From Clostridia bacterium (GTDB lineage: Bacteria; Bacillota; Clostridia; UBA1381; UBA9506): a DNA stretch of 64,000 bases. Shown piece after piece: positions 19,462-34,445 of this stretch (the stretch's first letter is position 1; every line of letters begins with the position of its first letter). The translations under genes and the position numbers were made by a program. The stretch is taken from the NCBI GenBank assembly GCA_017546245.1, contig JAFYXI010000021.1, positions 1-64,000 of the forward strand, read 5' to 3'. Below the pieces are notes generated by a model. The model saw nothing but the letters and a program-made list of their open reading frames with translations, was not told the origin of the DNA and did no database searches.

Positions 19462-19589
19462 AGGAGCTGTCTTGATAATCATTTTTTATAAATATTTATG
19501 CACGAAATATTGTAGGTAACGCATTAATGCGTTACCTACAACCAAACATTGCATAATTATTCGCTATATATGATTATTGAGACAGCTCT
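19462..19589. repeat. Modular palindromic repeat (MITE-like), copy 1
   Basis: Outer ends are inverted (GAGCTGTC at 19464-19471 with GACAGCTC at 19581-19588), and the homology of the ends extends inward through ATAATCAT and TTATGCA. The centre is a perfect 30-bp palindrome (19511-19540) with GCATTAATGC at its heart. A second copy with the same ends lies at 31757-31909. It sits between convergent genes and could also terminate both. Confidence 0.85.
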
Positions 19590-19612: not shown

Positions 19613-20344
19613 TTATATTTCCTGCAAAACTCCAATCAGCACATATCTTGCATCATCATATGAGTATGAGCAGGTTGAAAGCATCACAAATTTATCATCA
19701 GGCGAAAACATATAGTCTGCTTTAAAGGTTGATTTTTTAATTAATTCAGAAACAAAAGTATCTTTATACTCATTTTCGAGCGGCAGTTTACAAATTGGCG
19801 ATGTGCCGTTTACAGTAGCTCCCGCAACAAGCCTTACTTTATATTGTCTGTCAGGTGTTAAAATATACATTTGCTTATGCTCATCAAAATACTGCTGGTT
19901 TGTATATTTTACAAGCGTACCGAACATAGTATTGTTTTTCATATTATGACCGTATATTATCGTGTTGTTGTCAGTAAAATCGCCTTTGTTTAAGCAATCT
20001 GCAAATAATGTGCCCGATGCACTATATGCACCGTCTATTCTTCTGCTTAAATAATAAGAATTATCTTCTGCCTGCACAACAGGATAATTTATAGGTGTTC
20101 CCTCACAATAAATCCACGCTATAATATCGTTATTCTCTTGCTTTAATTCTTTAAAATTAACGCTTATTGGTGCAGTTTGTTCGGGCAATCTTGCGGATAC
20201 AACTTTTTCTGCCACTTTTTCATTATAGTCTTGTTCTTTATTATAGCTGTAAAGCTTATACGAAGAAAAAGCCAATGTTATTACGGCAGCTGTAAAAAGA
20301 ACAGATTTTAAAAATATCAGCAAATGAGTTTTATAATTTTTCAA
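19613..20344 (-). CDS. srtB: Class B sortase
   Basis: A 243-residue membrane-anchored transpeptidase with one N-terminal transmembrane segment (about 9-28) and an extracellular sortase barrel. The catalytic His is in IIYGHNM (H133), Cys in MLSTCSY (C225) and Arg in DDARYVLIG (R233), so all three are present. It would join a sorting-signal protein to peptidoglycan or to a fibre subunit. It is the last gene of the TetR/SipW/TasA operon, 14 bp after the Ser-rich protein gene. The only sorting-like motif seen in the operon is PPLTGD in the product of 28429-29844. Confidence 0.93.
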   Translation of the reverse strand: MKNYKTHLLIFLKSVLFTAAVITLAFSSYKLYSYNKEQDYNEKVAEKVVSARLPEQTAPISVNFKELKQENNDIIAWIYCEGTPINYPVVQAEDNSYYLSRRIDGAYSASGTLFADCLNKGDFTDNNTIIYGHNMKNNTMFGTLVKYTNQQYFDEHKQMYILTPDRQYKVRLVAGATVNGTSPICKLPLENEYKDTFVSELIKKSTFKADYMFSPDDKFVMLSTCSYSYDDARYVLIGVLQEI

Positions 20345-20358
20345 AAAATTACCTCCGA

Positions 20359-21435
20359 CTACTCAGCACTTCCGCCATCAGAAGAACCAGCTGCGGACGA
20401 TGCACCTGAAGAAGACGACTCGCCTCCGACTGATGACGAACCGCTTTTTGATGACGGGCTTTTAGCCGACGAAGTTTCGCCGCCCGACGCAGAACTACTG
20501 CCCGATTCTGAACTATTACCCGATGCGGTTGAACTCTGAGAGGGTGATGAATTGCTATCACTCGCCGATTGCGAAGCCGCGCTTGTTGTTTCGGATTTTT
20601 TACTTGATTCGCTGCTTTTACTGCTATCAGATGACGATGCACTTTCATCAGAACCTGACGAATCTGATTCTTGCGATTTTGATGAAGAGCTTGCTGCCGA
20701 TGCATTTTCGCTGTTTTCTTTTGATGCTTCACCCGAATCGGCGGCTTCTGTTTTATCTTCTGATTCTTCCGGCTTATCAGAAGAATTTTCTGTTTTCTCA
20801 GATGAGTCATCGGTTTTGTCCGAAACTGCTCCGCCCGAAGCGCCAGATGGTTTTTCTGCATTTTTTTCTCCATCAACTGCCGTTTCAGAAGATTTATCCG
20901 TTTTATCATCCTCTTCTGATGTTTCTTCGGGCGGCGGAGTAAATGAATGAATAATATTTCCGCCGCAAAGCTCGTTAATGTTATAATTATCGGGCTTTCC
21001 CCATCGGGGAATAAAGCTTATCGCACAACCTGCAACTGCCTGAATTTTTAATGTTTTTTCACCTTTAAATGCTGTTGTGCAATATTCTTTAACATCTCCT
21101 TCAGGACTTTTTATTTCAATTATACAATATCCCTGCGAAGCAGTTCCGCACGGAGAAAGTGTAAACTCGTGCACTTCTCCCTCTGTTTGAAGACAGGTGT
21201 AAACCGATGAAATCCGGCCATAATTTTTTTCTTTAACATCAATATCCCATACAGCGGCATTCATTGTAAAGCTTTTTGACGTATTACTGCTGAAAAACGC
21301 AAAAGCTGTCGAAACCATCATTGTCATACAGGCCAATATTGCAATTACCGACAATATAATTCTTGATTTAAAAACGCTGTCAGATATTTTTTCGTTTTCT
21401 GAAACTTTTAAATACTTTTCGTATAGTTTTTTCAT
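20359..21435 (-). CDS. SipW-signal-type exported protein with long Ser-rich tail
   Basis: A 358-residue protein if started at ATG 21435, which has AAGGGGGTG in front; the longer frame to 21480 has no such site. It has a cytoplasmic Lys-rich N-terminus, a hydrophobic segment ending STAFAFFSSN in the style of SipW-dependent signals, a TasA-like domain of about 130 residues with Cys residues, then about 180 residues made almost only of Ser, Glu, Asp, Lys, Ala and Gly. The tail resembles a wall-spanning stalk, but no sorting motif follows it. The tail's biased codons create long false open frames on the other strand. Sortase B follows immediately. Confidence 0.78.
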   Translation of the reverse strand: MKKLYEKYLKVSENEKISDSVFKSRIILSVIAILACMTMMVSTAFAFFSSNTSKSFTMNAAVWDIDVKEKNYGRISSVYTCLQTEGEVHEFTLSPCGTASQGYCIIEIKSPEGDVKEYCTTAFKGEKTLKIQAVAGCAISFIPRWGKPDNYNINELCGGNIIHSFTPPPEETSEEDDKTDKSSETAVDGEKNAEKPSGASGGAVSDKTDDSSEKTENSSDKPEESEDKTEAADSGEASKENSENASAASSSSKSQESDSSGSDESASSSDSSKSSESSKKSETTSAASQSASDSNSSPSQSSTASGNSSESGSSSASGGETSSAKSPSSKSGSSSVGGESSSSGASSAAGSSDGGSAE

Positions 21436-21462
21436 CCGGTCACACCCCCTTATAGTTAATTC

Positions 21463-21533
21463 GGCAATCAAAAGGCACAAAACAGCTATGCTTTATGCCC
21501 TTTGATTGCCGCCCGACCCCCGAAAGAGCCGGG
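21463..21533 (-). other. Two stacked hairpins in the 115-bp intergenic leader before the Ser-rich protein gene
   Basis: On the minus strand, a GC-rich hairpin with TTTC loop (21512-21533) is followed by a 15-bp stem with one G-U pair (21463-21477 with 21496-21510). Neither is followed by a T tract, so ordinary termination is unlikely. This may be an mRNA-processing, stabilising or regulatory leader. I do not recognise a known riboswitch. Confidence 0.45.
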
Positions 21534-21550
21534 ACTTGGCAATATAAATA

Positions 21551-22978
21551 TTAGCCTTCTAAGTATAACTCGTCATTTACATAAATTTTAATTTTTTTCG
21601 GATCAGTACCGGATCCATTATCATCCAATTCATTACCCAAAGCTTTTTTTACTTTTTCAGCTACAGCTTCGTTTTTAACATAGAATGTAAATGTACTTAC
21701 ATTTGCATTGTTAGATTCGCTGTTACAGAACCAGCATTCGCCCTGATTTACATTATTGACAAAAGTAATATCATTACCATTTATATAAATAGTTCTTAAA
21801 TTAGCACAACCGCGAAAAGCTTTGTTTTCAATAGTTGTATTGCCTTCAAATGTAACAGTTTCAATCTTTGATGCGCCAAATGCAGTTTCGCCTACATATT
21901 CAACTGTTGCAGGAATTACAATTTCTGTAAGACCAGTTTTCTGGAAGGCATTATCTGCAATAGTTTTAACAGTTGATGAGAAAACTACTTCTTTAAGATT
22001 ATTAGTTGCTCGAAAGGCGCGTGAATCAATTGTTTCAAGACCTTCGTTTAAAGTAACCTTTTCAACCGCTGATGAATTGAATGCCTGACCAAGAGATTTA
22101 ACTGTTGATGCAAGCTTTACTTCTTTAATGTCAGAATTGGTAGAAAAAGCGTAGTTACCGATTGCTTCAATTCCTTCCGGAACAACATACTCGCCAGTTG
22201 TTGCTTCGTAATTTTCTAAGCTGTAAAGAGTAAGTGCGCCGCTTTCTGCATCATAATAAAGCTGTGTACCATCTTCTGATTCAATGATTACTTCATCATC
22301 GTCAATCGGAGGTACTAAACCCTTGTCGTAATCTGTACCGAAGCTATCCTCTTCTGCCTCTACCTGTGTAGCGGATACATTAACGTCAATTTTGATGTTT
22401 CCGTTCATGTAGTCATTGCCTGCTTGTTCATTCATATGTACAGCAAGCGCAAAATAATCGGTAGCTCCGTCAGCAAGTCTGCCGTTTTCTGCAACTCTCT
22501 TATCTGTGCATACTTCAACATCGCCAATCTGAACGCTTGCATAGCTTTCGATTTCAGCCCATGAATCTACGTTTTTAAGATCTTCAGCCTTTGCTCCGTC
22601 AAGAATTGCATACTTTAAAGAACCAACAAGGCCTTCGTCAACAACGTCAAGAAGTATATTGTACTTAAGTGCAAGCGAACCATTGTTTTTAACCGCAAGA
22701 TAAACAATTTCTGTTTTACCCGGCTCCCAGTTTGCTCCGTTGCCTGTTTCAGAAAAGATGTTGCCATCATTGCCGTCAGCAATCGAAACATAAGTACCAT
22801 TTTCAGCCTTGTCCATAAGAAGGTCAACGTCGAGGTTACCCGCTACAATACGGTTGTTTGCGCTGGATGCATTATCTGTAAACCACGCAAAAGTTGTTCC
22901 GAGAAGCATTGCAAAGCAAAGCACTAATGATATTGTGCTGCCAAGCAGTGCTCTCTTGGTTGTTTTGTTGTTTGTCAT
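21551..22978 (-). CDS. TasA-like surface protein with BspA-type leucine-rich repeats
   Basis: A 475-residue protein. Residues 1-45 are a SipW-cognate signal (ALLGSTISLVLCFAMLLG, then TTFAWFTD and AGNLDVDL). Residues about 45-225 are a TasA/camelysin-like beta domain (GNGANWEPGKTEIVYL; AVHMNEQAGNDYMNG). Residues about 260-420 are LRR_5 repeats of the BspA type, with units such as AIGNYAFSTNSDIKEVKL and TIDSRAFRATNNLKEVVF. It is probably exported by Sec, cut by the neighbouring SipW, and assembled into surface fibres that expose the LRR module for binding. It is one of four paralogues with near-identical N-termini. Confidence 0.85.
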   Translation of the reverse strand: MTNNKTTKRALLGSTISLVLCFAMLLGTTFAWFTDNASSANNRIVAGNLDVDLLMDKAENGTYVSIADGNDGNIFSETGNGANWEPGKTEIVYLAVKNNGSLALKYNILLDVVDEGLVGSLKYAILDGAKAEDLKNVDSWAEIESYASVQIGDVEVCTDKRVAENGRLADGATDYFALAVHMNEQAGNDYMNGNIKIDVNVSATQVEAEEDSFGTDYDKGLVPPIDDDEVIIESEDGTQLYYDAESGALTLYSLENYEATTGEYVVPEGIEAIGNYAFSTNSDIKEVKLASTVKSLGQAFNSSAVEKVTLNEGLETIDSRAFRATNNLKEVVFSSTVKTIADNAFQKTGLTEIVIPATVEYVGETAFGASKIETVTFEGNTTIENKAFRGCANLRTIYINGNDITFVNNVNQGECWFCNSESNNANVSTFTFYVKNEAVAEKVKKALGNELDDNGSGTDPKKIKIYVNDELYLEG

Positions 22979-22997: not shown

Positions 22998-24893
22998 TTA
23001 TTTTGCAGTTAAACGGAATGTTTTTGTTGTTTCATCCCAATATGTTTTATAACCTTCGTTTTTGCAAACGAGTTTTGCTTCGTCGCCTTCGGTATAAACA
23101 TAATCTGCATCAGGCTTAAGGTTAAAGCTTGCAAAGTTTGATCTGCCTTCATCTACAGTAAAGGTAATAGTACCAAAGTTGTTAGCAAGGTTAACTGTGT
23201 TGTGCACATTATGTACCGAGAAATGAATCACTCCCGTAATACCATTACCGCCAACGGTTGGTGTTAAACCGCTATCAATGTAAACATCATCTTTAAGCTC
23301 ACCGCCCGTGAGTGTTACAGCCGTATCCCAGCAATAGAAAGCATCGAAATTCGAATTTTCGGCAGAAGCATTACCCGAAATTTCACCGCCGGTCATATTA
23401 AATGTGTTATGGTCTGTAAGACGCATAGCACCCGAGTTGCTTGCAGTATTGCCAACCATTTTAAAATCGCCGCTCATATTGATAACCGAATAAGTACCGA
23501 GATACATTCCGCCTCCTATACCACTAGCTGTATTGTACGCAATTGAGCCGCCGTTGAAGTTATAGGTTGATGAACCATAGCCCCATATTGCGCCGCCGTC
23601 TGTTGAAGCTGTGTTGTGGCTGATTTCGCCGCCGTTCATTGTAAGATTGCAGTTACTTACCATACGGATAGCACCTGCTACACCGTTTGAGCTGTTATAG
23701 CTGATTTTTGTACCTTCGTTAATTGTAATATGTCCGCCGCCCCAGATTGCGCCTGCGTCTGAACGGTTGTAAACAATCTGTGCGCCGTTTAATGTAAGAG
23801 TTGCGCCTATTCTTGTACCGAGGTTAATTGCCAGCGCTCCATCGTTGTTCTGAAGAACTGTATCTTTGTTTAAAACAATATGCGAATTAGCCCCTGCATT
23901 AATTAAATTACCGGTAGCAGTTATACCGCTGTTTGTACTGGTTGACGGATTCGCACTGCGGCTTGCCCATACTGCTCCTCCATCAATTACTACATCTGTA
24001 AGAGTTAATGTGCTTCCGGCAGTTACATTAAATATTGTGCCCGTGTAACCATCTGCACGCTTAATTTCGTATCCTGCACCATTAATGGTTACATCATAAT
24101 CAACGGTATATGTATCCTCTGTGGATATATCGCCTGTAATAACAATGTTTTTATTCTGGTTTGCCAAAGCAGTTCTGAGTTCATCGGCACTCGAAACCGG
24201 ATAATAGTCAAGGGACGCTTCTTTGTCATAATCAGAGCCGAAAGAATCTTCTTCTGCATCTTTCTGAGTTGCAACTACCTTAACATCAATTGTAATACTT
24301 CCGTTCATATACTCGTTGCCGGCTTCTTCTTTCATATGTACAGCAAGCGCAAAGTAGTCTGTGTCTTCAACATTATTTACCTTGCCTTCAAGAACGCCGT
24401 TCGGTGCAGCTGTATGCTGACCTGCCTGAACAAGCTCACTCTGAACACCTTCTGTTCTTATAATATCTGTCCACTTTGTTGCAGCCGCTAAATCACTTGC
24501 TTTAGCTTTATCTAAAAGTGCATATTCAAGTGAACCGATAAGACCCGGGTTGCCGTCTGTAATATCAAGAATTATATTATATTTAAGAGCAAGACTTCCC
24601 TTGTTTCTAACCGCAAGATAAACAATTTCGGTTTTACCGGGTTCCCACTTAATTCCGTTACCGGTTTCAGAGAAAATGTCGCCTGTGCTGCCGGCAATTG
24701 ATTCATAGTTGTTTTGTTCTGTCTTATCCATAAGCAGATCCACATCAAGATTACCTGCTACGATACGGTTGTTTGCGCTGGATGCACTGTCTGTAAACCA
24801 CGCAAACGTTGTGCCGAGAAGCATTGCAAAGCAAAGTACTAATGATATGGTGCTGCCAAGCAAAGCTTTTTTAGTTATTTTGCTGTTTGTCAT
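22998..24893 (-). CDS. TasA-like surface protein with right-handed beta-helix module
   Basis: A 631-residue protein. It has an N-terminal SipW-cognate signal nearly identical to its neighbours, then a TasA-like domain to about residue 220 (KWEPGKTEIVYLAV; MKEEAGNEYMNG). A long parallel beta-helix follows (about 235-600) with repeated units of the kind LTMNGGEISHNTASTDGGA and FNGGSIAYNTASGIGGG, as in polymorphic outer-surface and adhesin proteins. The beta-helix has no visible catalytic polysaccharide-lyase signature, so adhesion is more likely than catalysis. It lies 19 bp before the LRR paralogue gene. Confidence 0.85.
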   Translation of the reverse strand: MTNSKITKKALLGSTISLVLCFAMLLGTTFAWFTDSASSANNRIVAGNLDVDLLMDKTEQNNYESIAGSTGDIFSETGNGIKWEPGKTEIVYLAVRNKGSLALKYNIILDITDGNPGLIGSLEYALLDKAKASDLAAATKWTDIIRTEGVQSELVQAGQHTAAPNGVLEGKVNNVEDTDYFALAVHMKEEAGNEYMNGSITIDVKVVATQKDAEEDSFGSDYDKEASLDYYPVSSADELRTALANQNKNIVITGDISTEDTYTVDYDVTINGAGYEIKRADGYTGTIFNVTAGSTLTLTDVVIDGGAVWASRSANPSTSTNSGITATGNLINAGANSHIVLNKDTVLQNNDGALAINLGTRIGATLTLNGAQIVYNRSDAGAIWGGGHITINEGTKISYNSSNGVAGAIRMVSNCNLTMNGGEISHNTASTDGGAIWGYGSSTYNFNGGSIAYNTASGIGGGMYLGTYSVINMSGDFKMVGNTASNSGAMRLTDHNTFNMTGGEISGNASAENSNFDAFYCWDTAVTLTGGELKDDVYIDSGLTPTVGGNGITGVIHFSVHNVHNTVNLANNFGTITFTVDEGRSNFASFNLKPDADYVYTEGDEAKLVCKNEGYKTYWDETTKTFRLTAK

Positions 24894-24942: not shown

Positions 24943-26238
24943 TTATTTAAAGGTATAGCTATATGTTTTAACAGTTATATAGTTTCCTGTTTCGCTGTCG
25001 CGCGAACCGTCTTCTGCCTCATAAAGACGAAGCTCAACCGTAAGTGTTGTATTCTCAGGAAGTGCATCATTAAGCTCTAATGCACCGCAAAGGAAGCCTA
25101 TGCCATCATTGCCGTAATCAGAGAGGTCTTTAAGGCTGACAGTAATCGAGTTGCCTAACATTTGACCGATTGCATCAATAAGACGAATTTCTTCATTTGC
25201 GGCAACCGGCAAGCCTTCATTCGGAATTGCAACCCATTTATCATTATTCATGCTGCACCATGCATCGTAATAACCTGCAAGGGCTATGCTGTTCTCGGGA
25301 ATATCCTTATCTACAGAAACAATAAAATCTGCATGCCATGTCTTGTATTCAGACAATTTTACTTCTTCTGCGGACAAAGTCGGTTCAAACTGATATGCAG
25401 CGGCAAGACTTATTTTTCCTAAATCTGCTCCTAATTTGCTATCAGTTGTATCAATCAGCAGGTTTTTACTTAAAACCTCTACACCTTCAGGATTTTTAAT
25501 GGTTGTTGCATCAGAAAGAATTCTTGTGCGCGCAACAGGTTTGCCTGTGTCGTATGCAGCATTCTTGTCATACTGGTTATTAAAGCTGTCGCTTTCGTGA
25601 GTATACTGCGTTGCATAAACATTGATACCAAACTCTATAGAAGGAACATCCGAACCATTATGGTTTGCTTCGTTGCCTACAGTTTCGTCCATATCAACCT
25701 TGATGATAACATACTCAACCTCATCGGTTTCAAGCAGGTCGCTGTCCTTTGCGCCAAGAACATCTGCTGCTTTAAAGGTTGACTTGTTGTCGTATGTCAT
25801 GTTTTCGTTGGTAAAAGCAGTTGTAACATCAGATGCATTTTCTGTCATTATTGATTCAACTGTGAGAATTTCAGAAAGTACTATGTCATCTTCTGTCTTT
25901 GTTTTACCGATAATTTCATCAACAATGTTCATATTAGCTGTATATTTTAAAGCTAACGAACCACTGTTTTTAATTCTTAACGCTACTACCTCTGTATGAC
26001 CAGGCTCCCAGAGACTCTTTTGGAACAGATCGTCTGCACCGTCAAGCTTTGTCCAGTTTGTGCCGTCAAGCGTGTAATCAACCTCAATGTCTAAATTTCC
26101 TGCTTTGATTACGTTGCTGCCTGATACAGCACTGTCTGTAAACCACGCAAATGTGGTTCCGAGAAGCATTGCAAAGCAAAGTACTAATGATATGGCGCTG
26201 CCAAGCAAAGCTCTCTTTGTTGATTTGCTGTTCGTCAT
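24943..26238 (-). CDS. TasA/camelysin-like SipW-dependent surface protein
   Basis: About 431 residues from ATG 26238, which has AGGAGG at 26249-26254; the frame extends to 26373, but that extension overlaps the upstream intergenic region and has no ribosome site. It has a SipW-cognate signal (residues 1-40), a camelysin/TasA-like domain with LWEPGHTEVVALRIKN and MDETVGNEANHNG, and a C-terminal region of about 190 residues ending in mixed beta strands, with no recognised repeat module. It is one of four paralogous fibre-like subunits in the operon. Confidence 0.82.
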   Translation of the reverse strand: MTNSKSTKRALLGSAISLVLCFAMLLGTTFAWFTDSAVSGSNVIKAGNLDIEVDYTLDGTNWTKLDGADDLFQKSLWEPGHTEVVALRIKNSGSLALKYTANMNIVDEIIGKTKTEDDIVLSEILTVESIMTENASDVTTAFTNENMTYDNKSTFKAADVLGAKDSDLLETDEVEYVIIKVDMDETVGNEANHNGSDVPSIEFGINVYATQYTHESDSFNNQYDKNAAYDTGKPVARTRILSDATTIKNPEGVEVLSKNLLIDTTDSKLGADLGKISLAAAYQFEPTLSAEEVKLSEYKTWHADFIVSVDKDIPENSIALAGYYDAWCSMNNDKWVAIPNEGLPVAANEEIRLIDAIGQMLGNSITVSLKDLSDYGNDGIGFLCGALELNDALPENTTLTVELRLYEAEDGSRDSETGNYITVKTYSYTFK

Positions 26239-26323
26239 TTTTGTTTTACCTCCTGTTTTTTTATTTTTGTCAGACGAATATATGTAAACAGCCTTTTGCT
26301 GTTGTTTATAACCAAATTGCATT

Positions 26324-27712
26324 TTATTTTGTATAGTTATAAACGGGAATGGTTTTCTGCTCTTTATCTGCATTAAACCACTTTACATCTGTAAATTTAT
26401 TTTCAGATTCTTTAAAACTGATTTCGTCATTGTCATTTTCAGGATTTACGCTGCCAAGCAATATTCCGACTGCGTCTTTATATTCTTCGGCATTTTTAAT
26501 GGTTATATATTTGATATTACAGTTTGTTATTGTAAGACGCCCCTCTGACATTGTTCCGACAATAACACCTATCGGACCCTGAGCTGTGATGGTAGAATTT
26601 TTAACAGTTATATTATCAATTAAGACATCACCGCCGGTAATTGAGCCAATCAAAAATGCACAGTCATTGCCCTTATCGGTATCTGTTCCAAGATTGAAAT
26701 TGTCAATTGTCAGATTTTTAACCTCTGCTCCATTTGTTGAAGCAAACAGGGCTAATTGCGTTTCTGAATTATCTGCTGTCCGGTTTTTAATAATATGCCC
26801 ACAGCCATCAAAAACTCCGTCAAAAGAATTATCTTTACCATCACCTATACCTGCAAAATCAGGATATTCTGAAAGGTCTATATTGTCTGTAAGCTTTACA
26901 TACACATCAGGATTATTTGCAACATTAGCTTCTTTAAACGTATCGTCTGAATTAACAGCCTGTGTAAATTCTTTAAATTCTTCAATTGTGCCGATAGTTA
27001 CAACGTTCATTTCAGAAGCAGACTTTTTAACAGCTTCATTTTCTGTGTATTCGGCTTTTTTATCATAGTTTTTGCCAAAGCTATCCTCTTCATAAGCAGA
27101 TTGTGTTGCTACAAGCGTAAGGTCTGCAACAATACTGTTTCCCTGAAAATTATTCGCAGCATTATCAGGCATATGTACCGAAACGGCAAAATAATCTTTG
27201 TCATCTTTTTGCTTAAGCTTGCCGTTAGATACAACAGAAATTAAGCCTTCTTTTAGTTTGCCGGTTTTGGCTTTTTGATTATTTTTAATTTCTGCCCAAT
27301 TTTCAGATGAAATATCATCGGCTTTTACATCTTCTAAAACTGCATAATCAAGAACACCTGCAAGCTTGCCCGAAATGTTAAGCTTTATGCTGTATTTAAG
27401 CGCAAGCTCACCTATGTTTTCAACCGCCAGATAAACAATCTCTGTTTTGTCGGGTTCCCAGTTTACATCATCACCGCCATTTGCTTCGGCAAAAATGTCT
27501 CCGTTTGTCTCTGAAATCGAAACATAACTTTCTTTGTCTGCTTTATACATTAAAAGGTCAACATCAAGGTTGCCTGCCAAAATACGGTTATCAGCGCTTG
27601 AAACGCTGTCGATAAGCCAGGCATATGTTGTTCCCAAAAGCATGGTAAAACTTAAAACAAGCGATACTATACCGGTGACAAGTGCAATTTTTGTTGATTT
27701 AAGTTCTGTCAT
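26324..27712 (-). CDS. TasA-like surface protein with GLUG-like repeats
   Basis: A 462-residue protein. It has a SipW-cognate signal (ALVTGIVSLVLSFTMLLG, then TTYAWLID), a TasA-like domain (NWEPDKTEIVYLAVENIG; VHMPDNAANNFQGN) to about residue 225, and a C-terminal part with GLUG/beta-helix character (SFDGVFDGCGHIIKN; NGAEVKNLTIDNFNLG; GRLTITNCNIKYITIKN). It directly follows SipW (13 bp), so it is probably the first substrate made. The N-terminus is the most diverged of the four paralogues. Confidence 0.83.
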   Translation of the reverse strand: MTELKSTKIALVTGIVSLVLSFTMLLGTTYAWLIDSVSSADNRILAGNLDVDLLMYKADKESYVSISETNGDIFAEANGGDDVNWEPDKTEIVYLAVENIGELALKYSIKLNISGKLAGVLDYAVLEDVKADDISSENWAEIKNNQKAKTGKLKEGLISVVSNGKLKQKDDKDYFAVSVHMPDNAANNFQGNSIVADLTLVATQSAYEEDSFGKNYDKKAEYTENEAVKKSASEMNVVTIGTIEEFKEFTQAVNSDDTFKEANVANNPDVYVKLTDNIDLSEYPDFAGIGDGKDNSFDGVFDGCGHIIKNRTADNSETQLALFASTNGAEVKNLTIDNFNLGTDTDKGNDCAFLIGSITGGDVLIDNITVKNSTITAQGPIGVIVGTMSEGRLTITNCNIKYITIKNAEEYKDAVGILLGSVNPENDNDEISFKESENKFTDVKWFNADKEQKTIPVYNYTK

Positions 27713-27725
27713 TTTTACCCCCTAA

Positions 27726-28412
27726 TCATTCGTCTACGGGTTGACCCTCCTGCTTTGAAAGCAATTCTTTAAGCTGATGTAATTCTTTCATCATTTCGGC
27801 AGCCTGTTTGCGTTCTTCTTCAATTTTTTCTCTTTCGGTATTAAGCTCTTCCATTTGTTCTTTTTTATATCTGCGGAAAAGCTTTATGCACATAAGTCCC
27901 TGATATAAAATTAAAAGCAAAAACGGAATAAAGATGCAAAGAAAATAACCAATAGGTTCTTTAAGGAACAGGAAAAATGCTCCCACATTAGGAAGTTTTG
28001 CCACATATTTACCCAATATAAATGAGTATTCTACCGGAACTTCATCATCAACACCGGTTGTTGTACCATATGTAATAAAGGCAGGTTCGCCGGTTGCTGT
28101 TGTTGTTTTCTGGCGGATTTTATGCGTAATGGTTTCGCCGTAATATTCGTCACTTTGTGAGATGAATGCAATTATATCGCCCTCTTTAAGAGTAGCCGGT
28201 GCAACATTTTTTGTAAAAACAATATCTCCTGCATCAAAATCTGTCGCACTCATCGAGTCTGTCCTTACGGTAAACGCTTTAAATCCGAATAAATTTCTGT
28301 TGTTCTGATCAAATGTATTTACCGAAATTATTGTAAATATCATCATAGCAACAGCTACTGCAAAAATAGTCCAGACCAAAGCATTTTTTACTATATTAAG
28401 TGTTTTTTTCAT
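27726..28412 (-). CDS. sipW: SipW-type (ER-type) signal peptidase I
   Basis: A 228-residue membrane protease that removes the signal peptides of TasA-like proteins. It has an N-terminal membrane helix (about 10-31), catalytic Ser in RTDSMSAT (S53), His in ETITHKI (H97) in place of the Lys of bacterial-type enzymes, and Asp in VDDEVP; this Ser-His arrangement defines the ER/SipW type. A second membrane helix lies near 150-175. The last 50 residues form a charged probable coiled coil, which is not part of the usual domain. It is flanked by its putative substrates. Confidence 0.93.
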   Translation of the reverse strand: MKKTLNIVKNALVWTIFAVAVAMMIFTIISVNTFDQNNRNLFGFKAFTVRTDSMSATDFDAGDIVFTKNVAPATLKEGDIIAFISQSDEYYGETITHKIRQKTTTATGEPAFITYGTTTGVDDEVPVEYSFILGKYVAKLPNVGAFFLFLKEPIGYFLCIFIPFLLLILYQGLMCIKLFRRYKKEQMEELNTEREKIEEERKQAAEMMKELHQLKELLSKQEGQPVDE

Positions 28413-28428
28413 TACTTTACCTCTCCTG

Positions 28429-29844
28429 TCAATTAAATTCTCTGTTCGTATTATTCTTTTTCTGCGTTGCTACTGCACACATATCAAAAGACATACTCAT
28501 ATTTTGTGTTTCGTTGCCGCTTTCCTGCGGATAATGAAACTCTGCCGTAAGTATTCGTGTTTCATTAAGCATCAGCTCTGCGCTGTCGCAGTTTTCTCGC
28601 ACAAGTCCTTCTGCTTTGCCGCTGTAGAGCATATTTCCGGTTTCTTTATCAAAGATTTTTACATTCAAAACCTTTGCAAGTCCGCCGCTTAATTTATCAA
28701 AATAAATTTTGTAATATACCGCATCAGAGCCTTCGTTTTCAATAAAGAAATCTTTTCTTACCGTCATTCCCGGCTCAAACAAAAATTCATCCTGCGTAAT
28801 AATCGGTTTGCTGTCGTTTAAATTTATCTCAACCGTTCCGGTTTTAAAAACGTTTTCGTCAACCATTACAATAGAATAAACCAACGCAAAGGTTGTAACG
28901 CACAAGCATATTGCAAGAATTACAATTATTACTATACAGATAGTCAGTTTTTTTATAAGCGCATTTTGTTCTGCTTTTGTTTTGCTTTTCTTTTTCTTAA
29001 AAAGTAAAATTAAAAAAATTACCAAAATCGAAATGCATATTAAAACAATCCACAAAACCGGAGCAGCCGCGTCTCCCGTAAGCGGAGGATTTATAAGCTG
29101 ACCTGTCGGTCTCTGAACTGCTGCAGCGTCGGTGGGAGCTGCTTGTCCTTCTTCCTGCCATTGCTGCGAAGCCTCCGGCTGCATACCAGGCATAGCTGTC
29201 TCACCGTCAGGAGATGCGACCGGTTTGTTTTCGTCCTCTTTAATTGGAGGTATCGTAGCATCGCTGCCACCCGGTGTTATTACCTGATGCTCACCCGAAA
29301 CAGACGGAATAACAGGTTTTATCGGTTTGGCATTATTGCCTGTGTGTCCCGGACGTCCTTCGTCAGCGGTATATGCCCACCACTTAAAATCTGCAACCAA
29401 TTGTTTATTCTGATACTCGTTACCCACACTTGTATCAAGATAGACCGAAATTTTATAAATTAAATCCACGGTTTTGTTTACTGCCGAAATTGAATGTTCT
29501 AAATCGGGCATATCTTTTAGCAATCCGTCATAAAGCGGATTATCTTCACCATTTAAAACAACCTTGCATTTTAATACTTCTGCAAGCTTTTCATGGCCTT
29601 TTCTCACATCGGCAGTAAAATATACGCTAATAGTACCGTTATACGAAACGCTGATGTTGTAAATATTTGTTTCACAGTCGCCCGGAAACATATTGGTTAC
29701 ACTAAAGGGAACACTTTCTTCTGCGTTATTTTTGTATATCGACAAAACATTTTCTTTTGCCAGCGCACTTATTGCAAATACCTGCAACGCTATCAGCAAA
29801 AATGCTGCTGTTCTGAGTATTCTGCAAGCAATGCGATTTTTCAT
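28429..29844 (-). CDS. Two-domain TasA-like membrane protein with internal sorting-like signal
   Basis: About 471 residues from ATG 29844 (a GTG at 29853 is in frame but less well placed). Order: signal peptide (AAFLLIALQVFAISALA), TasA-like domain one (about 30-165, with GNEYQNKQLVADFKWWAYT), Pro-rich linker, PPLTGD followed by a hydrophobic helix and KKKKSK (about 250-290) exactly like a wall-sorting signal, then a second hydrophobic helix (KLTICIVIIVILAICLCV) and TasA-like domain two to the C-terminus (FKTGTVEINLND; FEPGMTVRKDFF). It reads as a fusion of a sortase-type protein and a SipW-type protein. Topology would put both domains outside, joined by a membrane hairpin. It may initiate or anchor the fibre. 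Confidence 0.75.
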   Translation of the reverse strand: MKNRIACRILRTAAFLLIALQVFAISALAKENVLSIYKNNAEESVPFSVTNMFPGDCETNIYNISVSYNGTISVYFTADVRKGHEKLAEVLKCKVVLNGEDNPLYDGLLKDMPDLEHSISAVNKTVDLIYKISVYLDTSVGNEYQNKQLVADFKWWAYTADEGRPGHTGNNAKPIKPVIPSVSGEHQVITPGGSDATIPPIKEDENKPVASPDGETAMPGMQPEASQQWQEEGQAAPTDAAAVQRPTGQLINPPLTGDAAAPVLWIVLICISILVIFLILLFKKKKSKTKAEQNALIKKLTICIVIIVILAICLCVTTFALVYSIVMVDENVFKTGTVEINLNDSKPIITQDEFLFEPGMTVRKDFFIENEGSDAVYYKIYFDKLSGGLAKVLNVKIFDKETGNMLYSGKAEGLVRENCDSAELMLNETRILTAEFHYPQESGNETQNMSMSFDMCAVATQKKNNTNREFN

Positions 29845-29907
29845 ATCTATCACCGCATTTCATTTTAATTTTATAAAAAACAGCATAAAATCTGTCTGTT
29901 AACAGAT

Positions 29908-30474
29908 TTATTGTCCGTTTATATTTATAGTTTTTATAATTCTGTTATACAGATTATCAAGCAACAGCTGTGTTTTTTCACCATCATCCCATACTGCATA
30001 ATCAACAATTGCCGAAAGTGTTGAATATATAAAAATTTCTGCCTGATCGAACGTGCAATTAAAAATTTCCATAAGCTTTTTGGCATAATCGGCATATGAA
30101 TAATTAAAATCCTTCATAGTTTCACGCATTCGTTTGCCGAATACGGGACTAACGGTAATCTGAATTACGCATCTGAGTTCGGTTTTGTATTTATCAATTT
30201 CCTCCAAAAGAATATCAAAGTATTGTTTTGGAGATGCTGTATGCTTTAAGGTAAAAGCAAACAGCTTGTCAACCACCTTCGATAAGCCATATTTTCCGGC
30301 GCTTATCCAAATATCATCCTTGTTATCAAACCAATAATACAGGCTGCTTTGAGCCAGCTTTGCCTCTCTGCACAAATCGCCTATTGAGGCGTTTGCCAAT
30401 CCTTTTTTTAAAAGATACTCCCATGTTGTCGCAATAATTGTTTTTTTCTTGTCGGACATAGTAAAACTGTCCAT
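29908..30474 (-). CDS. TetR-family transcriptional regulator
   Basis: A 188-residue regulator with an N-terminal helix-turn-helix (about residues 24-52: ASIGDLCREAKLAQSSLYYW) and a helical ligand/dimer domain after it. It is the first gene of the leftward surface-protein operon, 63 bp before the next gene. A 16-bp palindrome at 30516-30531, 42 bp before its start codon, is a likely binding site, so it probably represses or tunes its own operon. The start has AAAGGAATG ahead. The region 5' to it, up to the hairpin at 30550, shows no convincing promoter in this orientation. Confidence 0.9.
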   Translation of the reverse strand: MDSFTMSDKKKTIIATTWEYLLKKGLANASIGDLCREAKLAQSSLYYWFDNKDDIWISAGKYGLSKVVDKLFAFTLKHTASPKQYFDILLEEIDKYKTELRCVIQITVSPVFGKRMRETMKDFNYSYADYAKKLMEIFNCTFDQAEIFIYSTLSAIVDYAVWDDGEKTQLLLDNLYNRIIKTININGQ

Positions 30475-30515
30475 TTAAATTCATTCCTTTCATTTATTTT
30501 TTTGCCGGGGTAATG

Positions 30516-30531
30516 TGTAATGTTCATTACA
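30516..30531. promoter_or_regulatory. Candidate TetR operator
   Basis: A perfect 7-bp inverted repeat around TT: TGTAATGTTCATTACA. It is 42 bp upstream of the TetR start and outside the putative invertible segment, so it would stay in place and lie inside any leader transcribed leftward through the left site. Binding is inferred. Confidence 0.55.
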
Positions 30532-30549
30532 GAACATAGCAAAAAAATA

Positions 30550-30583
30550 TGCCTGCGACATAATCGAAATTATGTCGCAGGCA
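30550..30583. repeat. Left site of the putative invertible segment (hairpin)
   Basis: A 15-bp perfect stem with CGAA loop. Its inner 18 bp, ACATAATCGAAATTATGT (30558-30575), recur in inverted orientation at 30807-30824. The outer GC-rich arms (TGCCTGCG) are unique to this side. Reading leftward, the stem is followed by TATTTTTTT, so in this orientation it also looks like a terminator insulating TetR. Confidence 0.75.
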
Positions 30584-30629
30584 AAGAGACTTTTTATTTA
30601 AAAAGTTAAATTAAATTTCTTAAAACTGC

Positions 30630-30705
30630 AAAAAAAGGCATAATTATAAGACCGGCTATGTAGATTTTGCTAAACCGGTCTTGTAATTATGTTTATTTTT
30701 TTTGC
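30630..30705. terminator. Bidirectional terminator inside the invertible segment
   Basis: Sixteen-base arms 30640-30655 and 30675-30690 pair with one G-U, with ACCGG/CCGGT at the stem top. TTTATTTTTTTT follows on the plus strand and CCTTTTTTT on the minus strand. It separates the promoter from the far end of the segment in either orientation. Confidence 0.82.
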
Positions 30706-30740
30706 AATTTGCTTTTTTTAAAAAAATATATGTAAAATTA

Positions 30741-30769
30741 TTGACAAAACTTAGCTAACGTGTTATACT
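30741..30769 (+). promoter_or_regulatory. Consensus sigma-A promoter inside the invertible segment
   Basis: TTGACA at 30741-30746, 17-bp spacer, TATACT at 30764-30769, with AT-rich sequence upstream. Expected start is about 30776. Downstream within 60 bases is a hairpin with T tract, so in this orientation it yields only a short RNA. Confidence 0.85.
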
Positions 30770-30775
30770 TATCCA

Positions 30776-30834
30776 GCAATTAAAACTAGTGCAGTATATG
30801 TTTCCCACATAATTTCGATTATGTGGTTTTTTAT
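30776..30834 (+). ncRNA. Possible short RNA from the switch promoter
   Basis: The span from the predicted start of the consensus promoter to the T tract after the hairpin at 30805-30826 is about 55-60 nt. It may be a mere abortive product of the OFF state, or a small RNA marking that orientation. No open frame is in it. Confidence 0.4.
30804..30834 (+). terminator. Right site of the putative invertible segment, also a terminator
   Basis: Stem CCACATAAT/ATTATGTGG with loop TTCG (30805-30826), followed by TTTTTTATT. The inner 18 bp at 30807-30824 are the inverted copy of 30558-30575. The T tract lies outside the repeat and overlaps the stop codon of the recombinase gene. Confidence 0.78.
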
Positions 30835-31670
30835 TGCCTTAAAAGCCCTAATTGCTGTATTTGACGTCGGTGCACATCACCTGTTTCCATAGTATAAATA
30901 CGCGTGGTGTTAATGTTTGAATGCCCCAAAATATCAGCAAGACGTGCAATATCTTTTTGAATGGAATAATATGTTCGTGCAAAAAGATGTCTTAAATTGT
31001 GCGGAAACACCTTTTCTTTAGCTACCCCTGCACTTTTGCATAAAGATTTCATCATTTTCCATATTGTGCTTCTGTCGAGCGGCTTTCCTGATTTTGTAAT
31101 GAAGACCGAACCGCTTGTTATTTTTTGCTCTTTAGCATATTCGGTCAACATTTTGCAAAGCTCTTTAGGCAAAATTACAATCCGCATTTTTCCTTTACAG
31201 CTTATAGTCGCCTTTCTTGCACGCACAGCCTCAATAGTTATAAAAGAAAGCTCAGACACTCTTATTCCGCAGGCACATATTGTCTGCATAAGATAGTAAA
31301 GTCTTTCGTTCTTTTTATTTTTTGCAGCGTTTAGCAGTCTTTCATATTCTGATTTAGTAAGTTCTTTGCTTCTTTCTGCAAAAATTTGCTTTTGAATTTT
31401 TAAAGTTTTTACTTTGCAATCGTACCATTCATTAAAAGTAAAAAAGCTGTTAAGAGAAGATATAACCGAATTTGCACTTGCAGGAGCATAATTTTCTATA
31501 AGATGCTGTTTGTATTTAAGCACAACGCTTTTGTTAATTTCTGCATTACTGCACCATTTCGTAAATGCCCTTATATCACGTATATATTTTTCTAACGTCG
31601 ATAAAGATTTTTCTTCGTCTATTAAATATTCTTTAAAATTTTCTATCATTTTGTTACTGATTTTTTTCAT
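30831..31670 (-). CDS. Tyrosine recombinase (XerC/D-like), probable dedicated invertase
   Basis: A 279-residue site-specific recombinase. It has an N-terminal SAM-like core-binding domain (about 5-95) and a C-terminal catalytic domain with the full set of active residues: R137 in CGIRVSEL, a Lys near 159-161, H224 and R227 in PHNLRHLF, H250 in LGHSNINTT, and nucleophile Y259. It is the size of small invertases and XerC/D-like enzymes, not large phage integrases. AAGGAG precedes ATG 31670. No phage, conjugation or att-tRNA features accompany it. Its stop codon is 6 bp from the right 18-bp site, so it probably flips the adjacent promoter segment; this is inference from context. Confidence 0.92.
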   Translation of the reverse strand: MKKISNKMIENFKEYLIDEEKSLSTLEKYIRDIRAFTKWCSNAEINKSVVLKYKQHLIENYAPASANSVISSLNSFFTFNEWYDCKVKTLKIQKQIFAERSKELTKSEYERLLNAAKNKKNERLYYLMQTICACGIRVSELSFITIEAVRARKATISCKGKMRIVILPKELCKMLTEYAKEQKITSGSVFITKSGKPLDRSTIWKMMKSLCKSAGVAKEKVFPHNLRHLFARTYYSIQKDIARLADILGHSNINTTRIYTMETGDVHRRQIQQLGLLRQ

Positions 31671-31756: not shown

Positions 31757-31909
31757 GAGGAGCTGTCTTGATAATCATTTTTTATAAATATTTATGCACG
31801 AAATGTTGCAGGGAACGCATTAATGCGTTCCGCGGAATGGATAAATCCATTCCCTACAACCAAACCTTGCATAATTATTCGCTATATATGATTATTTAGA
31901 CTGCCCCTC
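31757..31909. repeat. Modular palindromic repeat (MITE-like), copy 2
   Basis: It has the same left end and body as the element at 19462-19589 (GAGCTGTCTTGATAATCATT onward) and the same right inner part. Its end repeats are GAGGAGCTGTC and GACTGCCCCTC. It carries palindrome GGAACGCATTAATGCGTTCC (31812-31831) plus an extra hairpin, GGAATGGATAAATCCATTCC (31834-31853), absent from copy 1. The length difference is due mainly to that added module. Confidence 0.85.
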
Positions 31910-33149: not shown

Positions 33150-33845
33150 TTATTTATTTTTTAAAACCTTTACATTTTCTGCAATTTTTACAAGTTCTTC
33201 TTTAGTAATATTTCCAGTAATGTGATAGAAAAATGCGTCATCGCTCCAACTAATAGCATTATCAATAGGATTTGTAATATAAACTGCATCACAAGTTCCA
33301 ACAATAATTTTCTCAGCATTTGCCGTTTCGGTATCAACATTTAAATTATCATCTACATCACCAATAATAAGATTAAAATACTTATCGTTTTCTAAAAACT
33401 TTAAACGAATTCTTCCCTTTGACGATAATCCATTTTCAACTTCAAACCCAACAGGAACATAGTTTAATATTACATTATCATCCGAATATACTATTCCACC
33501 GCTTTCGTTGGTATTATAATCGGTATTTGGCTGCGAAAATTCCTGCACAAAATTTAAAAATCTTGTTTTCCATGCCGAAACATCTGCTACTCTTAAAAAT
33601 ATCATGCCGGCAGTTAAAACCAGAACTACGCAGGCTGCAATGCGCATTGTTCTTAATCTGCGCCTGCGTTGCAGCTTTTCGCGCTCAGCATTAAAAATTT
33701 GCTGCATTTTTAAGTTATGCTTTTCAGATAATTCAACGCAGTCTTCGCCCGGCAGCTTTTCGGCGCCTATTTCTTCTGCCGCAAGCTTTGCCGCCTCGTC
33801 AATAATTTTTTCAAGGGTATCGTTTAAATATTCTTCATTTTTCAT
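33150..33845 (-). CDS. Membrane anti-sigma-factor-like protein (DUF4367 type)
   Basis: A 231-residue single-pass protein. It has an acidic cytoplasmic N-terminal region (1-75), a basic stop (RRRRLRTMR), one membrane helix (IAACVVLVLTAGMIFLRV, about 85-102), and an extracellular domain (about 130-230) of the DUF4367 type found in clostridial anti-sigma partners. Its start overlaps the sigma gene stop by 4 bp (33842-33845), which indicates translational coupling. It probably holds the sigma factor inactive until an envelope signal arrives. Confidence 0.82.
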   Translation of the reverse strand: MKNEEYLNDTLEKIIDEAAKLAAEEIGAEKLPGEDCVELSEKHNLKMQQIFNAEREKLQRRRRLRTMRIAACVVLVLTAGMIFLRVADVSAWKTRFLNFVQEFSQPNTDYNTNESGGIVYSDDNVILNYVPVGFEVENGLSSKGRIRLKFLENDKYFNLIIGDVDDNLNVDTETANAEKIIVGTCDAVYITNPIDNAISWSDDAFFYHITGNITKEELVKIAENVKVLKNK

Positions 33846-34387
33846 ACTGTCTTTTCCCCCTCTTCAAGAGCATTAACAATCTTCGCTTTGGCTCGGGTCA
33901 GTCTTTTTTTCACATTTTCGGGTGTAATATTTAAAAATTCTGCTATTTGCTCTCTGCTCATATCATAAACACGCCTTAAAAGCAACACATCGCCGTATTT
34001 TGGATCAAGCTGTTTTATAATTTCTTTTGTATTATGTAAAGTTTCTTTATTTATTACAAGATTTTCAACATCAGAATCGCCGCCAATTGCCATATATTCT
34101 TCTGTCAATTCTTCATTCTTTTCACTTTTCTTTGACTTTTTTAACATAGTTTTTGCAACATTCATAGCCGTAATATATAAAAATGTACGTGTGCGCGCAA
34201 ATTCGTTTTCGTCTATTTTATAAAGATTTTTAATAACTCTTATAAAGGTTTCCTGCAATACTTCTTCTGCCATTTCTTTATTGTGCAAATAGTCATATAC
34301 TTTTAAATATACGGCTTTATGATGTTCGGCATACACACGTTCAATCTTTTTCAAATCTTCCGGGGTTTCGATTAACATTATAAACAT
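33842..34387 (-). CDS. ECF-type RNA polymerase sigma factor
   Basis: About 181 residues from ATG 34387, chosen because AAAGGTAGGG lies just upstream; the frame opens further at 34408. It has the sigma-2 region (YDYLHNKEMAEEVLQETFIR, about 35-55) and sigma-4 helix-turn-helix (SREQIAEFLNITPENVKKRL, about 145-165), with no region 3, as in ECF sigmas. It is followed with overlap by a membrane anti-sigma-like gene. The nearby secreted protein is a possible regulon member. Confidence 0.92.
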   Translation of the reverse strand: MFIMLIETPEDLKKIERVYAEHHKAVYLKVYDYLHNKEMAEEVLQETFIRVIKNLYKIDENEFARTRTFLYITAMNVAKTMLKKSKKSEKNEELTEEYMAIGGDSDVENLVINKETLHNTKEIIKQLDPKYGDVLLLRRVYDMSREQIAEFLNITPENVKKRLTRAKAKIVNALEEGEKTV

Positions 34388-34445
34388 ACAAACCCTACCT
34401 TTCGTCAAAAACTTTAATTGTCATTATTTTAACCTTTCGCCCCTC

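Follow-up and report, generated by a model that had tools for sequence, protein, structure and literature searches.

In the fim switch of E. coli and in the invertible promoters of Bacteroides, the promoter lies in a short segment with inverted repeats and the genes under its control encode surface structures; in fim, a tyrosine recombinase is encoded next door. We know of no terminator built from the recombination sites in these switches. Here we describe a locus contained in a stretch of 64,000 nucleotides from Clostridia bacterium (positions 1 to 64,000 of contig JAFYXI010000021.1, assembly GCA_017546245.1), which was analysed at its full length and is referred to as the window. In this locus a 267-bp segment carrying a promoter is found between two inverted sites, with the gene of a tyrosine recombinase on one side, as in fim, and an operon headed by tetR and encoding SipW-type surface proteins on the other, whereas the repeats and the recombinase subfamily differ from those of fim and Bacteroides. 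The inverted repeats flank the promoter beyond chance, the adjacent tyrosine recombinase is intact and both orientations occur among relatives, which are the features by which an inverton is recognised. We consider it highly likely that the locus is a self-contained DNA-inversion switch ahead of the surface operon, and the recombinase-linked invertible promoter, which now stands in the OFF position, is real and very probably active.

The XerC/XerD-dif system has one dif per replicon, whereas the window has two inverted copies beside the recombinase gene. The likeness resides in the dif-like core of the sites and in the enzyme, whose best-scoring models are XerA/XerD, yet with scores below all Xer cut-offs (139.9 vs. 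329.6 for TIGR02225 and 116.2 vs. 335.15 for TIGR02224), so that the XerC/XerD-dif family cut-off is missed. In the C. difficile cwpV switch, operated by RecV, inversion creates or destroys an intrinsic terminator at the segment edge (PMC2784873). The window resembles cwpV in having a predicted flip-dependent intrinsic terminator at this position; however, cwpV has its promoter outside the segment and recV is encoded at an unlinked position (PMC2784873), whereas in the window the promoter is inside and the recombinase adjacent. The passages on inverton group 139 (invertase group 35) in a 2025 study of the gut community hCom2 report 33 invertons, 32 of them in Clostridia, adjoining tyrosine-type recombinases; the examples given, from C. 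sp. D5 and I. butyriciproducens, span 255-257 bp, and reads show both orientations (PMC11892184). Their size is close to that of the window cassette, and class and recombinase type agree. As far as these passages go, group 139 is probably the same family as this cassette; they contain no description of dif-like arms, locus-specific spacers, terminators or a tetR-SipW target (PMC11892184). Tyrosine-recombinase invertons are therefore a known kind of switch, and cwpV is the precedent for the terminator logic. The novelty lies in dif-like sites whose spacers are locus-specific and in a lock that combines promoter and terminator; the variant parts also include the conserved hairpin of the segment and a probable operator for TetR between the switch and tetR.

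The invertible segment and the adjacent recombinase

The initial annotation, made from the sequence alone, had described two identical 18-bp sites in inverted orientation, a consensus promoter between them that points away from the operon, and a tyrosine recombinase with its catalytic residues and a stop codon close to the right site. All of these elements were recovered at the following positions.

30558-30824, unstranded: invertible segment including the recombination sites, 267 bp, at present in the OFF orientation; assigned from the inverted pair and the opposite orientations in relatives
30558-30575, plus strand: distal recombination site, ACATAATCGAAATTATGT; same core as the proximal site, inverted
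30807-30824, minus strand: proximal recombination site, exact reverse complement of ACATAATCGAAATTATGT; 16-bp core CATAA-TCGAAA-TTATG
30741-30769, plus strand: invertible sigma-70-type promoter, TTGACA-17-TATACT with TG before the -10; aimed away from the operon at present
30831-31670, minus strand: Xer-type tyrosine recombinase, presumed invertase, 279 aa; Pfam PF00589 (Phage_integrase), E 3e-31, plus a SAM-like N-terminal domain

The two sites are exact inverted copies and the only exact occurrences of the 18-mer in the 2.03-Mb genome. A relaxed search (one mismatch in the 7-bp arms, any 4-nt core) added two single imperfect sites on other contigs, and a genome-wide master recombinase acting on scattered sites was thus ruled out for this genome. 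Each 18-mer is a near-palindrome, ACATAAT-core-ATTATGT, with 7-bp arms and a 4-nt asymmetric core, so that each strand can fold on itself, and it is set within a longer hairpin.

The stop codon of the recombinase lies 6 bp from the right site, and its catalytic residues (R137, K161, H224, R227, H250 and Y259) are conserved in 118 of 118 aligned relatives. The nearest solved structures are those of archaeal XerA-like proteins (4a8e, 5hxy) and of E. coli XerD (1a0p). It is presumably this enzyme that performs the inversion.

The promoter, whose TTGACA starts at 30741 and whose TATACT ends at 30769 after a 17-bp spacer, matches the consensus at 11 of 12 positions and ranks first among 15 promoter-like sites in the region. 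A near-consensus promoter is present in most segments of the relatives described below, where the -10 ends a median of 39 bp from the site that it faces. On the operon (minus) strand between switch and tetR (30474-30558), no sigma-70-like promoter matching at least 9 of 12 positions was detected, which agrees with the previous remark that the operon has no obvious promoter of its own. In four relatives (L111, L122, L142 and L155) the sites enclose two strong promoters of opposite direction and the segment measures about 360-410 bp; these loci are possibly two-way switches.

A cassette family with both orientations

Close relatives of the recombinase were collected from named assemblies (21 loci), from 37 of 95 genomes of the order and from 61 of 391 genomes of the class; they are spread across Clostridia, with up to six copies per genome. 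Downstream DNA was obtained for 110 relatives and, once duplicates had been removed, the sequence following the recombinase stop was read in 121 loci. Directly after this stop, an inverted CATAA-N6-TTATG pair with identical N6 at both ends was present in 104 of the 115 loci with enough sequence, as compared to 0 of 115 shuffled regions, 0 of 117 upstream regions and 0 of 10 distant Xer relatives. The shuffled and upstream controls rule out chance repeats. The N6 spacer matched within all 105 pairs, although 57 different spacers were counted over the loci, none of them palindromic. Tyrosine recombinases require identical spacers in the crossover region, and the identity within pairs is the signature expected of such a region. 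The CATAA-N6-TTATG core is similar to the centre of dif. Among named isolates or strains, the pair occurs in Lactonifactor longoviformis, Monoglobus pectinilyticus and Subdoligranulum variabile, while viral contigs contained neither a relative of the recombinase nor a copy of the junction.

The initial annotation had proposed to look for the inverted arrangement in related genomes, and it was found there. The promoter is ON (towards the downstream gene) in 25 loci and OFF (away from it) in 59, the window included, and 20 loci gave no clear call. Since mis-scoring of the promoter alone had to be excluded, segments were aligned with the promoters masked, the masked letters being treated as wildcards, and pairs with an alignment score of at least 80 were considered. 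Opposite-state pairs aligned inverted in 24 of 25 cases and same-state pairs aligned directly in 37 of 38; clear examples of the former are L106 (OFF) with L157 (ON) and L020 (ON) with L024 (OFF). Related tetR genes lie behind both states (ON in L017, L019 and L020; OFF in the window, L018 and L026). On a tree of 84 recombinases 20 state changes were counted, at least 11 of them forced by well-supported branches, against a mean of 21.7 with shuffled labels; in the neighbourhood of the window (11 loci), 6 were OFF and 5 ON. State changes are therefore about as frequent as with random labels, which indicates that orientation turns over faster than the loci diverge.

The genes behind the switches of the relatives encode proteins with S-layer homology, LRR, GLUG, fibronectin-III, dockerin and cohesin domains, type IV pilins, SipW systems (three further cases), SPFH proteins and some restriction/helicase-like proteins. 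Given this wide variation, recombinase and switch behave as a portable module. In a locus of the same genus (L016, genome G003) the place of tetR-SipW behind the cassette is taken by a PD-(D/E)XK nuclease-like gene, suggesting cassette exchange between loci. Divergence of spacers within genomes, considered as a statistical signal, was unsupported (7 of 53 within-genome pairs share a spacer vs. 2.8% between genomes); the shared spacers come from near-identical copies in G025 and G396, plus one pair in G055. Three or four sites within 600 bp after the recombinase stop were seen in 20 of 105 loci (including L017, L018, L028, L030, L034, L099, L108, L115, L153, L160, L165 and L167). The extra sites lie on the recombinase or the operon side, mostly 32-45 bp from the first, and a third site could let a flip shuttle a short linker back and forth.

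Predicted terminators, the internal hairpin and the operon behind the switch

The predicted terminator function of the sites, a probable TetR operator and a hairpin inside the segment go beyond what the initial annotation had described.

30540-30583, minus strand: intrinsic terminator around the distal site; 15-bp stem-loop (30583-30550) with a UUCG loop, then TATTTTTTT; faces the operon and is predicted in OFF only
30805-30832, plus strand: intrinsic terminator at the proximal site; 9-bp stem (30805-30826) and T6; faces the recombinase gene
30639-30691, unstranded: conserved hairpin in the segment; AGACCRRTG and CAYYGGTCT core around a loop of 14-17, flanked by A and T runs; fold z about -7
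30516-30531, unstranded: TetR-type operator, TGTAATGTTCATTACA, palindrome TGTAATG-AA-CATTACA, between switch and tetR

The predicted fold of the distal terminator is -24.8 kcal/mol in the observed OFF arrangement as compared to -12.2 kcal/mol after in-silico inversion. The inversion swaps the inner arm TGCCTGCG for the inner flank of the other end, a single pair remains in the stem besides the 7 of the core, and stem and T run are no longer directly adjacent. In the ON relatives L019, L020 and L017 the arm able to pair with the distal outer flank lies at the opposite end of the segment, as the flip predicts, and restoring OFF in silico gave -23.0, -25.1 and -18.7 kcal/mol, respectively, vs. 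-6.8, -5.7 and -12.2 kcal/mol. Besides the direction of the promoter, OFF would thus be locked a second time, because the distal site is a predicted terminator that inversion takes apart. A T-rich proximal outer flank (at least 5 T in 8) occurs in 42 of 59 OFF and 18 of 25 ON loci and is far more widespread than the distal terminator, whose flip-dependent form was found in about 7 of 11 operator-bearing tetR loci and in some others. The hypothesis that inversion toggles the distal terminator in all loci was consequently rejected: it is in the window and in a subset of relatives that inversion is predicted to create or abolish an intrinsic terminator before the gene. In the leader predicted for ON (30500-30549), a T7 run can pair with the downstream GCAAAAAAA, a pairing that may hide the U run from RNA polymerase.

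The central hairpin scored above every shuffle in 54 of 84 resolved segments; its loop hardly varies in length, and pairs 4, 6, 7 and 9 show compensatory changes. The idea that it is a repeated genomic element was rejected: the strict hairpin pattern had no match in the genome (the window copy carries a mismatch and escapes it). A search of the hairpins against Rfam returned no family and sub-threshold chance matches only. Two roles are candidates for this element: a terminator that works in both directions and protects the operon against read-through from the recombinase, a role that the A/T flanks fit, and a protein-binding or recombination accessory site, which the conserved letters and the fixed loop fit.

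Of the 20 tetR-headed loci, 12 have a sequence matching TGTAAYGNNCRTTACA with at most one mismatch, as compared to 0 of 82 others. Because it is confined to tetR-headed loci, the palindrome is most likely the operator of TetR itself; TetR would bind there, most likely providing a further level of control that, besides the switch, is also reversible. The operon consists of the following genes.

29908-30474, minus strand: TetR-family regulator, first gene of the operon (PF00440)
28429-29853, minus strand: camelysin/TasA-like protein, M73 family match (PF12389)
27726-28412, minus strand: SipW-type signal peptidase (TIGR02228 above cut-off; NF046067, E 3e-17)
26324-27712, minus strand: SipW-dependent TasA-like surface protein (PF12389)
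24943-26373, minus strand: SipW-dependent TasA-like surface protein (TIGR04088 above cut-off; PF12389)
22998-24893, minus strand: SipW-dependent surface protein (TIGR04088 above cut-off)
21551-22978, minus strand: SipW-dependent surface protein with BspA-type leucine-rich repeats (PF13306, E 4e-44; TIGR04088)
20359-21480, minus strand: Ser-rich protein with a SipW-type N-terminus, recognised from its sequence, family searches giving no match
19613-20344, minus strand: class B sortase (TIGR03064, E 8e-55, above cut-off)

From tetR to the sortase, all genes share one strand and are separated by no more than about 70 bp, and both a SipW-type signal peptidase and its cognate substrates are present (TIGR02228 and TIGR04088 above cut-off). 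The previous proposal that this bacterium phase-varies TasA-like fibres is largely supported as far as the invertible switch is concerned, given the ON and OFF relatives, whereas the identity of the product as a TasA-like surface fibre is suggested by SipW, cognate-SipW and camelysin matches. A literature search combining TasA/SipW with phase variation or DNA inversion retrieved no paper on an inversion-controlled TasA/SipW operon.

Mechanism, alternatives and significance

In the mechanism that we propose, the recombinase would pair the two dif-like sites and flip the 267-bp segment between them. In OFF, the promoter would fire away from the operon and give a short transcript that stops at the proximal terminator without reaching the recombinase gene; leak transcripts from the recombinase, which run along the operon strand, would meet the internal hairpin and then the 15-bp distal terminator. 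In ON, the promoter would face tetR and the flip would replace the inner arm of the distal hairpin, so that the terminator would collapse and RNA polymerase enter the operon. Transcription would then proceed through tetR, the TasA-like gene, sipW, the TasA-like set and sortase B, with TetR repressing at its operator.

Several points weigh against this mechanism. The region upstream of tetR may contain a promoter for a different type of sigma factor; 20 loci gave no clear promoter call, some of them having two opposed promoters; assemblies report one state per locus, and flipping in the source strain is something that we infer from sequence comparison. As regards the terminator, the predicted OFF arrangement is only modestly more stable across loci (p = 0.012 in OFF loci and 0.81 in ON loci), and the loci in which the distal terminator appears to depend on inversion are a subset picked after the fact and not the whole family.

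A refinement that is compatible with an inversion switch, although we regard it as unlikely, assigns a regulatory role to the short outward RNA made in OFF or to a recombinase antisense, for example in limiting recombinase expression. The OFF promoter does face the 3' end of the recombinase gene, and the wide conservation of the proximal terminator flank would mean that the OFF transcript is controlled; however, this same terminator would end the transcript short of the recombinase gene, and this speaks for insulation rather than antisense control. That the cassette is a fossil, once flipping and now locked OFF in this strain, is quite improbable: this assembly shows a single orientation and a few relatives have lost one site, but the identical 18-mers, the near-consensus promoter, the catalytic residues and the open frame have all been kept, and orientation is labile across the family. 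It is hardly credible that the 18-mers serve just as a pair of outward-facing intrinsic terminators, which would isolate a small RNA or a short promoter unit, and not as recombination sites, even if both are called as terminators and the present promoter with the right terminator would give a transcript of about 50-60 nt, since terminators need no identical non-palindromic spacer at both ends, as found in every pair, many distal sites in relatives have no T run and whole segments are inverted between loci.

An inversion switch of this kind could provide random on/off expression of surface adhesins, fibres, pilins and some restriction-like genes in many little-studied Clostridia, many of them from the ruminant gut. 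The succession of recombinase stop, CATAA-N6-TTATG, promoter and inverted CATAA-N6-TTATG is a sequence rule by which such switches can be detected from assemblies alone. Where a genome has several cassettes, their spacers often differ, and therefore the role of the spacer in keeping recombinases off other sites is directly testable; the sites may also serve as orthogonal flip switches. More tentatively, and with somewhat more doubt than confidence, we propose that the whole is a class-wide portable cassette of Clostridia, in which the spacer would be a private code separating the cassettes of a genome, promoter and site-made terminator would form a two-part lock, and the hairpin would be a new regulatory element of recombination or transcription.

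Two further observations concern the surroundings of the locus. The palindrome GGAACGCATTAATGCGTTCC has at least 26 exact copies in the genome, and one copy together with one 2-mismatch variant bracket the recombinase-operon module (31812-31831 and 19516-19535). Upstream of the recombinase, at 33150-34408, the sequence suggests an ECF-type sigma factor and its likely partner membrane protein.
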